Shown one piece after another: positions 25,956-35,403 of a DNA stretch of 64,000 nucleotides. The stretch's first letter is position 1, and every line of letters starts with the position of its first letter. The stretch spans positions 47,423-111,422 of the forward strand of contig VMFU01000002.1 of the NCBI GenBank assembly GCA_007376205.1, written 5' to 3'. The stretch comes from Candidatus Peregrinibacteria bacterium Gr01-1014_25. GTDB lineage: Bacteria > Patescibacteriota > Gracilibacteria > Peribacterales > Peribacteraceae. Made by a program: the position numbers and the translations under genes. The notes below the pieces were generated by a model. The model was not told where the DNA came from. It was given only the letters and a program-made list of their open reading frames with translations, and did not search any database.

Positions 25956-28900
25956 ATGGCGAAGCCCCGTTTCGACCCTGTTGACCCACGGCAATCTTTC
26001 CCCGCCCTCGAGCAGGGCATCCTGCAGTACTGGCGGGAGGAGGACATGTTCCGCCGGTCCATCCACCACCGCGGCGGAGCCGGCGACGACGCGCTCAACA
26101 ATCCGGGCGGGCGCCAAGGCCCCGTGAACACGTTCAGCTTCTACGACGGGCCACCGTTCGCGACGGGCCTGCCTCACTACGGCCACCTCCTTGCGGGCAC
26201 GATCAAGGACGTCATCCCCCGCTACCAGACCATGCGAGGCAACCGCGTGGAGCGGCGCTTCGGTTGGGATTGTCACGGCCTGCCCATCGAGAACCTCGTC
26301 GAGAAGGAACATGATATCGCGAGCAAACGGGAGATCGAAGAAAAGGGCGTCGCGTGGTTCAACGGACTCTGCCGCGGCTCGGTGCAGCGGTACGTGAAAG
26401 AGTGGCGCGCAACGGTGGAGCGGATGGGGCGCTGGGTCGACATGGACTGGGACTACCGGACGATGGACCCCGACTACATGGAGAGCATTTGGTGGGTCTT
26501 CGCCGCGCTGCGCCGCAAAGGCCTCATCGAGGAGGGGTACAAGCCGATGCACGTCTGCCCCCGCTGCGTGACGCCGCTGTCGAACTTCGAGGTGACGCAG
26601 GGATATAAGGAAGTGACGGACATGTCTGTGATTGCAAAATTCGAAATCCGAAATCCGAAAGAATCCCGAATCCCGAATCCCGAAAAGACGTACCTCCTCG
26701 CATGGACGACGACGCCGTGGACGTTGCCGGGAAATCTTTTTTTAGCAGTGAATCCAAAAGTGAAATATGTGAAATTTAAATATCACAATGATTTCTTCAT
26801 TGTCGCGGAATCAATATGGATGGACCGTAAAAATCCCAAAAGCATGCTGCATCCGCTCATGTATGCAGAGATAATCGAGCCAGGCGCTGAAATTCCTGAA
26901 ATGCCGGATGTCGTAGATAAATCTTTTCCGGGCAAAGATCTCGTCGGCAAGAAGTACGAACCGCTGTTTCCCTATTTCGCCGCCGACTACCCCGACGCCT
27001 TCCGCGTTGTCGCCGGCGACTTCGTCACGACGCAGGACGGCACCGGCGTCGTGCACATTGCTCCGGGATTCGGCGAGGACGACTACGGCGTGTGGCAGCG
27101 GGAGGCGGAAAGCGGGAAGCGACCGGCGGGCCGCAGGCAGAAAGCCTCCGCTGTACAACCCGATTCCCGAAGTCCGATTCCCGACTCCCGCATCCCCCTA
27201 CTCCAGCACGTCACGATGGAAGGCCGTTTCGTCGACGCCGTCACGGACTTCGCCGGCATGGAGGTGAAGCCGAAGGACGATCCGTCGAAAACGGACAAGA
27301 AGATCGCAGAACATCTCGAGGAGCGCGGCCTGCTCTTCGCAAAGGCTCCCTATCGCCACACCTACCCCCACTGCTGGCGATGCGACTCGCCGCTGCTCAA
27401 CTACGCGACGAGTTCGTGGTTCGTCGCGGTGGAGAAGATCAAGGAAGACATGCTCGCGGCGAACGCCGAGACGCAGTGGGTTCCCGCGCACATCCGCGAC
27501 GGGCGCTTCGGCAAGTGGCTGGAGAACGCGCGGGACTGGGCAATCTCCCGCAACCGCTACTGGGGCACCCCGCTGCCGCTCTGGCGCTGCGGCGATGCCA
27601 TCGAGGTCGTCGCCGGCCGCGATGAACTCATGGCCAAGTGCCTCATGCGCTTCACGAAACTGACGGCGGTGCGGCACGGCGAGAGCGAGGGGAACGTGAA
27701 GCCCGTCTACCAGGGGATTCCTCCGGGCACGGATCTGACGAAGCGCGGCCGGGAGCAGGCGCAGGCAACGGGCGAGCGGCTCTCGCGGGATCCCCGCCCC
27801 GTCCGGATCGTCTACTGCTCGCCGCTGGCGCGGACGCGGCAGACCGCGCAAGCCATCGCCGACGCGACGGGTGCCGAAGTGATCGTCGACGAGCGCCTGC
27901 GCGAAGTCGGCTTCGGCGAGTACGAAGGCAAGACCGTCGACTTCTCGGACCTGGCCCTCGTTCGCGCCCGCCGTGCGCACAAACTGGAGACCGGCCAGCC
28001 GGAGAGCATCTACCACTTCCCGGGCATGGAAACGTGGGACGACGTGCAGAAGCGTGTCTCCGACTTCCTCCGCGACGTGCTTCCCCGCCACCGCAGCGAA
28101 CATATCGTCGTCGTGACGCACGCCGATCCGCTGCAGAACTTCCGGTGGTTCTTCACCGGCGAGGATCCCTTCAAGTTGAGCCACCAGCCCTACCCTACGT
28201 TCGCCACGCCCTACGCGTTCTTCTACGACCACGCGACGGAGAGCGCTCTCGACCTCCACAAGGAAACGGTCGACGGCATCGCCTGGCAGGGTCCGCCCTC
28301 CCCTTTCTCCGTCACCGCCACCTTTGTCCGGCACGGCGAGACCGATTGGAACAAGACGAAGCGCATCCAGGGAGGCAACGTCGACGAACCCCTGAACGAC
28401 GAGGGGCGCAGACAAATTCGCGCGGCCGCTGACGCTCTCGCAGGTCAGCAGTTCGACGGCATCATCTGTTCGGATTTGCGGCGCGCAAAGGAGTCCGCGG
28501 AGATTCTCTCCCACGCGCTCGGCGTACCGATCGTCGACGCGTGGGCGTCGCTGCGGGAGCGCAACACAGGAACATGGAGCGGGCGCTCGTTCGATGACAT
28601 CATCACGAGTCTTTCCTGGGTCCCCGTGAACGGCAACGTGTCCCTGCATCCTGCCATGCCCCCGGAAGGCGAATCGCTTCATGCCTACCTCACACGCATC
28701 CAAGACGCACTCGATGACTTGCGGGCGCGATACGCGGGGAAGCGCGTGCTCGTCATCTCGCACAGCGGCGTCCTGCAGGCGGCGCGGGCGCTCACCGAGA
28801 ACCTGCCCTTCGCAAAAGCTCCCTACCGCTTCGGCAACGGCGAAGCCCTGACGCTGGAGCTGCACCCGATGATGCGACGGACGCCCGAGGTGCTCGATTG

Positions 28901-30554
28901 CTGGTTCGAGAGCGGGGCGATGCCGTACGCCCAGAGCAACTACCCCTATGCAGTAGACAGCGGGCAGCGGGCAGCGGGCAACGCTGATCGCTCACTCGAC
29001 GCCTTCACATGGGAGGGCGACGTCGAAGCCGAACGCGCCAAGCGCTATCCCCTGCCAAGGGGTTTCCCCGCCGACTTCATCGCGGAGAACCTGGACCAGA
29101 CACGCGGCTGGTTCTACACGCTGATCGTCTTGAGCGCGGCGCTCTTCGGCAAACCCGCCTTCCGCAACTGCATCTGCGGCGGCATCGTGCTGGCCGAGGA
29201 CGGACGCAAGATGAGCAAGCGGCTGAAGAACTACCCCGATCCGAACGAACTCATGGAGAAGCACGGCGCCGACGCGCTGCGCTTCGCTCTCATGTCCTCG
29301 CCCGTGGTGCGGGCGGAAACCCTGCGCTTCAGCGAGCGCGCCGTGGCGGAGGCGATGCAGAACATCCTGCTGCCGCTCTGGAACGCCTACAGCTTCTTCG
29401 TCACGTACGCGAATGAAGCCGGATGGGAACCGCTGCCCTCGCGCTCGCACTCCGCGCACCCGCTCGACCGATACATCCGCAACGAAGTGCAGGATTTGGT
29501 CAACCGCATGACGGAGCAGCTCGACGCCTATGACCTGTCGGCCACCTGCGCGGAGATGCATGACACGATCGACGCCCTGACCAACTGGTACATTCGTCTG
29601 TCGCGGCGCCGGTTCGCGGGCAAGGGAGCGCTCGACGAGCATGCCGACGTCGAGCCGACCGTCGACGACCGCAACGCCGCCCTCGACACGCTCTACGACG
29701 TGCTGCTGACCATGAGCCAGCTGCTTGCGCCGCTCTGCCCCTTCGTGACCGAGAGCATCTACCTGAACCTCGTCGGCGAGGAGCACGGCTCCATCCACCT
29801 CACCGACTGGCCGCAGACGCGCAAACTGGGAAAGGACGAGGCCGCGCTCCTGGAGAAGCACCGCATGCTGCGCCGCGTCGTCTCGCTGGGCCTGGGCCTC
29901 CGCGCCGAGAAGAAGATCAAGCAGCGCCAGCCCCTCGCGCAGGCGACCATCGCGCTCCCGCCCGCCCTCGCCTCCCGCCTCGACCCGACCCCCGCCGACG
30001 TCGACGTTCTCCTGCAAGAACTGAACGTGAAAACCGTCGCGTTCGCCGACGAGCCCGGCAGCCTCGGCGAACAGATCCTCCAGATCAACGCCCGCGCCGT
30101 CGGACCGCGCCTGGGCGGCAAGGTGCAGGACCTGATTGCGGCCGGAAAGCGCGGCGAGTTCAGCGTACAGCCCGACGGATCGTTCCTCGTGTTGGAGGAA
30201 GCGATCGGCGCGGACGAAGCGACGGTGGTGTACCGCGGGCGCGAGGGCGAGGACGTCGCCGCGGCGCATGGCATCGTCGTCAGCCTGGACACCCGCCTCA
30301 CGCCGCAGCTCAAGCGCGAGGGATTGCTCCGCGACCTCATCCGCTCCATCCAGATGCTGCGCAAGGACGCCGGGCTCACCATCGCCGACCGCATCATCCT
30401 GGCCGTGGACGGCATTGAGCTGACGGACGCCGAGCGCAACGTCCTGATCCAGGAAACGCGGTCGACCATCGGAGCTTGCAACGCCTCGGCCCATTCGCTT
30501 GACCTCGACGACCGCGTCATCACCATCCGCTTCTCCCCAATCTCCCGCCCCTAA
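25956..30554 (+). CDS. ileS: Isoleucyl-tRNA synthetase with two inserted histidine-phosphatase domains
   Basis: GLPHYGHLLAGT, WTTTPWTLPGN, RYWGTPLPLW, EVLDCWFESGAMPYAQ, KMSKRLKNYPDP; AVRHGES...VTHAD and FVRHGET...ISHSG inserted. Confidence 0.95.
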   Translation: MAKPRFDPVDPRQSFPALEQGILQYWREEDMFRRSIHHRGGAGDDALNNPGGRQGPVNTFSFYDGPPFATGLPHYGHLLAGTIKDVIPRYQTMRGNRVERRFGWDCHGLPIENLVEKEHDIASKREIEEKGVAWFNGLCRGSVQRYVKEWRATVERMGRWVDMDWDYRTMDPDYMESIWWVFAALRRKGLIEEGYKPMHVCPRCVTPLSNFEVTQGYKEVTDMSVIAKFEIRNPKESRIPNPEKTYLLAWTTTPWTLPGNLFLAVNPKVKYVKFKYHNDFFIVAESIWMDRKNPKSMLHPLMYAEIIEPGAEIPEMPDVVDKSFPGKDLVGKKYEPLFPYFAADYPDAFRVVAGDFVTTQDGTGVVHIAPGFGEDDYGVWQREAESGKRPAGRRQKASAVQPDSRSPIPDSRIPLLQHVTMEGRFVDAVTDFAGMEVKPKDDPSKTDKKIAEHLEERGLLFAKAPYRHTYPHCWRCDSPLLNYATSSWFVAVEKIKEDMLAANAETQWVPAHIRDGRFGKWLENARDWAISRNRYWGTPLPLWRCGDAIEVVAGRDELMAKCLMRFTKLTAVRHGESEGNVKPVYQGIPPGTDLTKRGREQAQATGERLSRDPRPVRIVYCSPLARTRQTAQAIADATGAEVIVDERLREVGFGEYEGKTVDFSDLALVRARRAHKLETGQPESIYHFPGMETWDDVQKRVSDFLRDVLPRHRSEHIVVVTHADPLQNFRWFFTGEDPFKLSHQPYPTFATPYAFFYDHATESALDLHKETVDGIAWQGPPSPFSVTATFVRHGETDWNKTKRIQGGNVDEPLNDEGRRQIRAAADALAGQQFDGIICSDLRRAKESAEILSHALGVPIVDAWASLRERNTGTWSGRSFDDIITSLSWVPVNGNVSLHPAMPPEGESLHAYLTRIQDALDDLRARYAGKRVLVISHSGVLQAARALTENLPFAKAPYRFGNGEALTLELHPMMRRTPEVLDCWFESGAMPYAQSNYPYAVDSGQRAAGNADRSLDAFTWEGDVEAERAKRYPLPRGFPADFIAENLDQTRGWFYTLIVLSAALFGKPAFRNCICGGIVLAEDGRKMSKRLKNYPDPNELMEKHGADALRFALMSSPVVRAETLRFSERAVAEAMQNILLPLWNAYSFFVTYANEAGWEPLPSRSHSAHPLDRYIRNEVQDLVNRMTEQLDAYDLSATCAEMHDTIDALTNWYIRLSRRRFAGKGALDEHADVEPTVDDRNAALDTLYDVLLTMSQLLAPLCPFVTESIYLNLVGEEHGSIHLTDWPQTRKLGKDEAALLEKHRMLRRVVSLGLGLRAEKKIKQRQPLAQATIALPPALASRLDPTPADVDVLLQELNVKTVAFADEPGSLGEQILQINARAVGPRLGGKVQDLIAAGKRGEFSVQPDGSFLVLEEAIGADEATVVYRGREGEDVAAAHGIVVSLDTRLTPQLKREGLLRDLIRSIQMLRKDAGLTIADRIILAVDGIELTDAERNVLIQETRSTIGACNASAHSLDLDDRVITIRFSPISRP

Positions 30555-34983: not shown

Positions 34984-35403
34984 GGGGATGACAGGCTTCG
35001 ACGGCGCGGCCAATGATGGTCGCACGTCTCCGTTCGGGATCGCACCGGTTCCCGTTACCCACTGTGCAACCCATAGCTGCCAAATCAGCTAGGAAGCATG
35101 GACTCGTCGCGAGCATCCAGGAACGTCTCGGCCTCACGGTCGGCGTTCCCGCGCTCGTGCCGGTCTTTGCCTAAGTCCGCCCTGTGCGGACGCGTTGCTC
35201 CCGCGATGCTCGCTGACGGGATGCAACGTCACCAGCGAGCTGGGATGACCGTCTGACGCGGCGGTTCTCCGGCATTCTTCGCGTCACCCTCGCTTCCGGT
35301 TCTTGCCTTTTCCAACCCGGGATGCGAGTACCAGAAAAGGCACGACGGTACGGACACGGCCTTCACGCGTCGGACCCGGGTTCAATTCCCGGCATCTCCA
35401 CCA
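34984..35403 (+). ncRNA. ssrA: tmRNA (one-piece)
   Basis: 5' GGGGATG pairs with 3' CATCTCC-A-CCA; GGCTTCGACGG; T arm GGGTTCAATTCCC; ATAGCT-GCC resume context like E. coli ATAGTC-GCA. Confidence 0.92.

Follow-up and report, generated by a model that had tools for sequence, protein, structure and literature searches.

Eukaryote-like, type 2 isoleucyl-tRNA synthetases (IleRS; TIGR00392; PDB 7d5c, 8wnd, 8c8u, 1ile) are the closest described relatives of the protein considered here, which shares with them the synthetase body, the signature motifs, the CP1 editing domain, the anticodon domain and the DUF5915 C-terminus. In yeast IleRS the linker ARDWNVSRNRYWG (453-465) connects CP2 to CP3, which spans positions 459-526 (PMC7955072). 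Synthetases enlarged by additional domains are also on record. NCBI names a family of IleRS with an N-acetyltransferase domain (NF040702), and the MetRS of Mycoplasma penetrans, an organism with a reduced genome, is reported to have tandem N-terminal ancillary domains (PMC13215547).

The IleRS gene analysed here belongs to a small uncultured bacterium of the candidate class Peribacteria. It lies in the window, i.e., the whole 64,000-nt stretch of DNA under analysis, and all coordinates below are positions within it. Histidine phosphatase domains are abbreviated HP.

25956..30551, + strand: ileS, encoding an isoleucyl-tRNA synthetase of 1532 aa (TIGR00392), with no second IleRS gene in the genome
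26172..26189, + strand: HIGH-type signature PHYGHL, near-invariant in alignment A2
26619..27365, + strand: CP1 editing domain, residues about 222-470 (the model has a Foldseek match to 1wk8/1ue0, an IleRS editing domain)
26703-26735, + strand: WTTTPWTLPGN within the CP1 editing domain
27528..27566, + strand: CP2-CP3 linker ARDWAISRNRYWG, landmark 5' of the insertions, the same linker as yeast IleRS 453-465 (PMC7955072)
27645..28232, + strand: HP-A, the first histidine phosphatase domain, inserted at CP3 site A (Pfam, residue census, AlphaFold)
27666, 27816, 27897 and 28110, + strand: HP-A motifs AVRHGES, CSPLARTRQ, LREVGFG and VVTHAD, respectively
27672, 27675, 27831, 27903 and 28119, + strand: codons of the putative HP-A catalytic residues R573, H574, R626, E650 and H722
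28248..28286, + strand: IleRS CP3 strand LDLHKETVDGIAW, separating HP-A from HP-B (aligned to DLHKPYIDEI/DLHRPYIDE of insert-free IleRS)
28305..28862, + strand: HP-B, the second histidine phosphatase domain, inserted at CP3 site B (Pfam, residue census, AlphaFold)
28323, 28467, 28551 and 28752, + strand: HP-B motifs FVRHGETDWN, CSDLRRAKESAE, LRERNTGTW and VISHSG, respectively
28329, 28332, 28482, 28557 and 28761, + strand: codons of the putative HP-B catalytic residues R792, H793, R843, E868 and H936
28887..28916, + strand: EVLDCWFESG, where the C-terminal Rossmann half begins after CP3 (DCWFESG is invariant in alignment A2)
29208..29222, + strand: KMSKR signature, located in the sequence

A preliminary description of this DNA had put the frame at about 1530 aa from MAKPRF and its synthetase signatures as intact, and both points hold. 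The frame runs from MAKPRF at 25956 to 30551 with no internal stop, and PHYGHL, KMSKR, WTTTPWTLPGN and the CP1 cysteine pairs CPRC and CWRC are all present. The product scores 759.5 bits against TIGR00392 (cut-off 621.4), and Pfam finds PF00133 (tRNA-synt_1) split by two PF00300 domains and followed by the anticodon domain (PF08264) and DUF5915. It does not meet the models of the mupirocin-resistant IleRS MupA and MupB (609.0 and 585.6 bits, cut-off 1900) or the IleRS-with-GNAT model NF040702 (229.5, cut-off 1999), and Pfam shows no GNAT domain in it. No second IleRS is present in the genome, which is 99.93% complete and whose remaining synthetase matches are weaker paralogues of other specificity. 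Since ileS is the sole IleRS gene of such a genome, its product is inferred to be the enzyme that serves the cell as IleRS and charges tRNA-Ile with isoleucine. It is a normal, essential IleRS with eukaryote-like, type-2 relatives. Short repeats of the type CCCGAATCCCGA were seen in the CP1 part of ileS (26665-26683 and 27159-27187, translated EIRNPKESRIPNPE and PDSRSPIPDSRIP); the window has 6 matches to this type where 0.8 would be expected.

The two inserted domains match PF00300 with 279.9 bits taken together and with 137.0 and 151.5 bits separately, above the cut-off. As they are framed by the CP2-CP3 linker at 27528-27566 and by EVLDCWFESG from 28887, both insertions lie within CP3, site A being 5' and site B 3' of the strand LDLHKETVDGIAW. 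Positions 481-518 of the cytoplasmic IleRS 9w01_B (about 37 residues) correspond to about 410 residues of the window protein. Across IleRS, the landmarks are separated by 60-106 residues without an insert, 239-288 with one HP, 443-473 with two and 639 with three. Where the HPs sit, the window protein lacks most of the cysteine pairs that related IleRS have in CP3. AlphaFold models CP3 with both inserts as confident HP folds protruding from the CP3 strands (pLDDT 88.2, pTM 0.84), and the best PDB matches that Foldseek returns for them are HP enzymes, among them the phosphoserine phosphatase PspA. A longer model, covering residues 1-1195, likewise gives the HPs with confidence, but large parts of its Rossmann core fall below 50 pLDDT, so we make no claim on the position or distance of the HPs relative to the IleRS active site.

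These results agree with the preliminary description, which had read two phosphoglycerate-mutase-like domains within the synthetase as separate insertions, not one block, with their catalytic residues kept. PF00133 is indeed interrupted by two PF00300 domains, every motif quoted for them was located, and HP-A and HP-B each retain the full set of five catalytic residues. The alignment with related IleRS that it had proposed maps the insertions to two CP3 sites flanking LDLHKETVDGIAW, which vary independently and hold different HP lineages, and the structural model it had also proposed gives two confident HP folds. The distribution over the family, the counterparts in ValRS and the distinct origins of the two domains go beyond that description. 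Misassembly, a frameshift or chance are excluded by the open frame and by the recurrence of the same arrangement in many independent Peribacteria-type MAGs. A 28-nt stretch of the IleRS core (27329-27356) is 89% identical to one in HP-B (28802-28829), both being translated FAKAPYR; as this peptide is absent from HP-B of the relatives, the shared stretch reflects either chance or local copying.

The five residues of the HP catalytic centre (R-H-R-E-H) are intact in 28/28 Peribacteria HP-A domains (mean pairwise identity 0.63), in 26/26 site-B domains (0.40) and in 33/35 other site-A domains of the candidate phyla radiation (CPR; 0.32), as well as in three of three site-C and six of eight ValRS HP domains. 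Within Peribacteria IleRS, mean identity is higher for HP-A (0.63) than for the CP1 editing domain (0.47) and HP-B (0.41), the Rossmann halves reaching 0.75-0.79. From this conservation, and with no measured activity, HP-A and HP-B are inferred to be working phosphatases that would act via phosphohistidine. None of the curated HP subfamily models reached its cut-off with either domain, so a substrate cannot be assigned.

Phyla outside Patescibacteria were covered only by a peptide-seeded scan of 84,980 species genomes. It found the same protein in 27 further contigs of Peribacteria/Peregrinibacteria type (L005-L031). All 27 have HP-A and 22 also have HP-B; L025-L029 have HP-A only, and L009 has three HPs, the extra copy being at site B. 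A site-B HP stands alone in L034 (Gracilibacteria) and L066. With the window protein, HP-A is found in all 28 Peribacteria IleRS; HP-B was lost at several dispersed points of this clade (L025, L026/L027, L028). Contig L025 is labelled Kiritimatiellales, its IleRS groups inside Peribacteria, and it is probably misbinned.

Among 380 Patescibacteria genomes scanned, the IleRS model and model A1 (the site-A insert plus flanks, built from some of the same 380 genomes) together found an HP in the IleRS of at least 59, from 31 families and mostly at site A. This is a lower bound; 57 of the 59 were found by the site-A model, and the other two, G046 and G234, have their listed matches at site C. An HP-IleRS is present in each of the 16 genomes sampled from the family to which the window belongs, and most Patescibacteria IleRS have no HP. 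Site C (model position about 683, 5' of the anticodon domain) is occupied in G046, G234 and G361, with three HPs in G234. The IleRS with a site-C domain were seen at L185:638-4903 (- strand; GNAT and HP), L186:1176-5882 (three HPs) and L187:1397-5728. Full-text literature searches, outside of which most subscription papers remained, returned no account of HP, phosphoglycerate mutase or Nudix domains or insertions in IleRS or other synthetases of CPR/Patescibacteria. IleRS and HP are each already known families; their combination, its two independent sites and its wide spread appear to be undescribed.

In a quick HP tree with many weak forks, the site-A domains of Peribacteria are united in one clade (SH-aLRT 97), nearly all site-B domains form a separate group, and the ValRS HPs are scattered over several places. 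By this tree, HP-A and HP-B are different HP lineages which were acquired separately, and the possibility that HP-B is a copy of HP-A is rejected. Insertion of a single tandem block is rejected as well, as sites A and B each occur without the other. The third HP of L009 is not a fresh duplicate: its nearest relative is the site-B domain of L007 and not its own neighbour. On the IleRS-core tree (FastTree, insert left out), the presence or absence of an HP requires 11 changes, at least six of them forced by well supported branches, which means that HPs were repeatedly gained and/or lost at one place. HP-B has been lost several times.

HPs are not confined to IleRS. At least 13 ValRS of the 380 genomes have one, 11 at a CP3-like place and two downstream of WFSSG (G365, G322), and L052, from outside this sample, adds a further HP-ValRS. 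HP-ValRS are commoner in genomes with an HP-IleRS (5/13 vs 54/367, Fisher p 0.036, uncorrected for kinship). The HP of the L178, L179, L180, L181 and L052 ValRS occupies the CP3-like place, with SRQIWWG on one side and DTFDTWFSSG on the other, and that of L176 and L177 sits farther along, after WFSSG; the HP of L180 seems to lack the second catalytic His.

A separate HP gene is found beside argS and ileS in three fusion-free genomes (G274, G349, G332). It is immediately upstream of a class Ia synthetase gene in G274 and G349 (the one in G349 was called IleRS by eye, from its N-terminal sequence), and an HD-domain gene stands between it and ileS in G332. The HPs of G274 and G349 nest among the IleRS site-A domains in the quick HP tree. 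The gene orders recorded were argS-HP-ileS (L192:90-5320), argS-HP-HD domain-ileS (L193:80-6067) and argS-HP-truncated class Ia synthetase, IleRS-like by eye (L191:11-3501). The idea that an HP gene adjoins every insert-free ileS is rejected: among 60 HP-free IleRS loci, an HP gene no more than 4 kb away was seen at a single one, which had been picked in advance.

Among the inserted domains seen in CPR IleRS and ValRS, HPs are by far the commonest type, and these synthetases also carry NUDIX (L138, L189), serine hydrolase (L175, L189), HAD (L175), GNAT (L185) and Y1 transposase (L190) domains. Among the individual cases, the ValRS frame of L175 (333-4157, 1275 aa) contains a HAD hydrolase, a serine hydrolase and an HP as three additional domains, and the 1544-aa IleRS of L189 has a serine hydrolase, NUDIX and HP together. 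NUDIX lies in the CP1 region of IleRS in L138:358-3774 and L189:1141-5772, and an IS200/Y1 transposase-like domain occupies residues about 390-469, also in the CP1 region, in L190:1323-5255. In L182, L183 and L184 a VTT (DedA-type membrane) domain is fused to an HP domain.

Our preferred reading, for which we would put the probability at roughly 0.45, is that both HPs are working phosphatases which act on a small soluble compound and are coupled to isoleucine and valine charging, most likely as a clean-up activity. This is inferred, and no activity, substrate or coupling has been shown. By the usual HP route, phosphate would be transferred from the compound to His574 of HP-A or His793 of HP-B with both Arg, the Glu and the second His assisting, and water would then release it; the compound may be a by-product, a look-alike or an inhibitor that carries phosphate and arises close to the synthetase. 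This reading is favoured by the strict catalytic conservation, by HP-A being conserved above the CP1 editing domain, by the recurrent placement in IleRS, by the ValRS HPs and by the HP genes beside argS/ileS. Against it stand the repeated loss of HP-B and the failure of either HP to reach a subfamily cut-off. The HP activity must also be dispensable, since most Patescibacteria IleRS are HP-free and only 1/60 such loci has an HP gene nearby.

The main argument against a specific coupling is that the unrelated NUDIX, GNAT, HAD, serine hydrolase and transposase inserts point to general insertion tolerance. It leaves room for a less likely explanation which still deserves attention, namely that active housekeeping HPs are tethered in an insertion-tolerant CP3 loop, where the fusion keeps their dosage and, the genome being small, saves a gene, without any link to charging. 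Frequent HP gain and loss, with most IleRS having neither an HP nor an HP neighbour, would be expected in this case. However, mere tolerance does not readily account for HPs far outnumbering the other insert types and reappearing at one place in IleRS and also in ValRS, for the HP genes beside argS/ileS in fusion-free genomes, or for HP-A being better conserved than the editing domain. That the inserts are pseudo-enzymes whose folds merely replace or brace the CP3 zinc ribbon is very improbable: the cysteine pairs of the window CP3 are mostly gone where the HPs sit, but the catalytic residues are invariant at 32-63% overall identity, and several CPR IleRS keep the CP3 cysteines alongside an HP.

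The remaining explanations give the HPs other tasks. They could protect the synthetase by inactivating a phosphorylated or nucleotide-type inhibitor or by undoing inhibitory phosphorylation by a toxin-type kinase, which we consider quite unlikely. HPs are monoester phosphatases, not phosphoramidases, and we know of no phosphorylated IleRS inhibitor or IleRS kinase for these organisms; retention of HP-A throughout the Peribacteria clade suggests constant use. In favour, the patchy gain and loss of HPs fits a conditional benefit, and some of the other inserts (GNAT, hydrolases) resemble the enzymes that neutralise microcin C-type synthetase inhibitors, i.e., the GNAT domain of MccE, the MccF peptidase and HIT hydrolases (PMC7157772). 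Hydrolysis in cis of the pyrophosphate formed in aminoacylation, pulling the reaction, finds some room in the absence of a soluble family I pyrophosphatase from the window genome, but this genome has a membrane H+-pyrophosphatase, and family I enzymes are not linked to the fusion (20/59 genomes with an HP-IleRS vs 117/321 without, Fisher p 0.77); such a role is not supported and has very little chance of being correct. Least credible is a moonlighting glycolytic phosphoglycerate mutase. The window genome has enolase but no cofactor-independent mutase (PF01676), and the top NCBIfam match of HP-A is the archaeal-type dPGM model; yet HP-A scores only 100.4 bits there (cut-off 225) and 35.9 bits against TIGR01258 (cut-off 81.7), genomes outside the Peribacteria family show no association between HP and a missing PF01676 (p 0.49), and the genome's stand-alone dPGM, which has the usual motifs, reaches 214 bits against TIGR01258, so that this role is not supported either. 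Two frames of about 1050 aa, G186:C22:8790-11870 and G374:C3:2937-6047, were seen to contain two PF01676 (phosphoglycerate mutase type) domains each.

An essential synthetase that harbours two full enzymes, whose catalytic centres are conserved in different lineages, suggests a chemical activity tied to isoleucine and valine charging which is undescribed in the literature searched. As the fusion recurs in at least 59/380 genomes, natural pairs with and without it, together with the ValRS parallel and the trans (operon) version, allow this question to be tested. The fusion is of further interest for how functions are packed into essential genes in very small genomes. In a wider and rather speculative sense, the editing-type class Ia synthetases (IleRS and ValRS) of CPR may be platforms for embedded phosphohydrolases acting on compounds that synthetases make or are poisoned by, an extra quality-control or immunity activity beside CP1 editing that is regained at the same places; we regard this as possible but doubtful. 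Elsewhere in the window, a tmRNA gene at 34984-35403 has a predicted tag which is unusually long (31 residues).

Compared with known systems, the window protein differs from the cytoplasmic IleRS 9w01_B in that its CP3 stretch of about 410 residues, not about 37, accommodates two HP enzymes. HP-A is similar in fold and catalytic residues to PspA (4ij5/4ij6; branch 1 of the HP superfamily), its nearest PDB entry by sequence (E 2.6e-19; TM 0.77 on target), and differs from it in being inserted in a synthetase; as it scores 94.6 bits against the curated PspA model, whose cut-off is 350, the PspA substrate cannot be transferred to it. HP-B resembles PhoE/YhfR (1h2e/1ebb) and CobC-type phosphatases in fold and catalytic residues (TM 0.78-0.80 on target) but, unlike them, is embedded in IleRS. 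It does not meet the CobC (alpha-ribazole phosphatase) model TIGR03162 (115.2 bits, cut-off 162.9), and the whole-protein CobC score of 190.1 bits is a sum over both HP domains. The NF040702 proteins likewise combine IleRS with an added enzyme domain; the window protein has no GNAT, and L185 has both GNAT and HP. The M. penetrans MetRS (PMC13215547) is another synthetase that has grown by additional domains in an organism with a reduced genome, but there the addition is terminal and made to another synthetase, whereas in the window IleRS phosphatases are inserted internally and recurrently.
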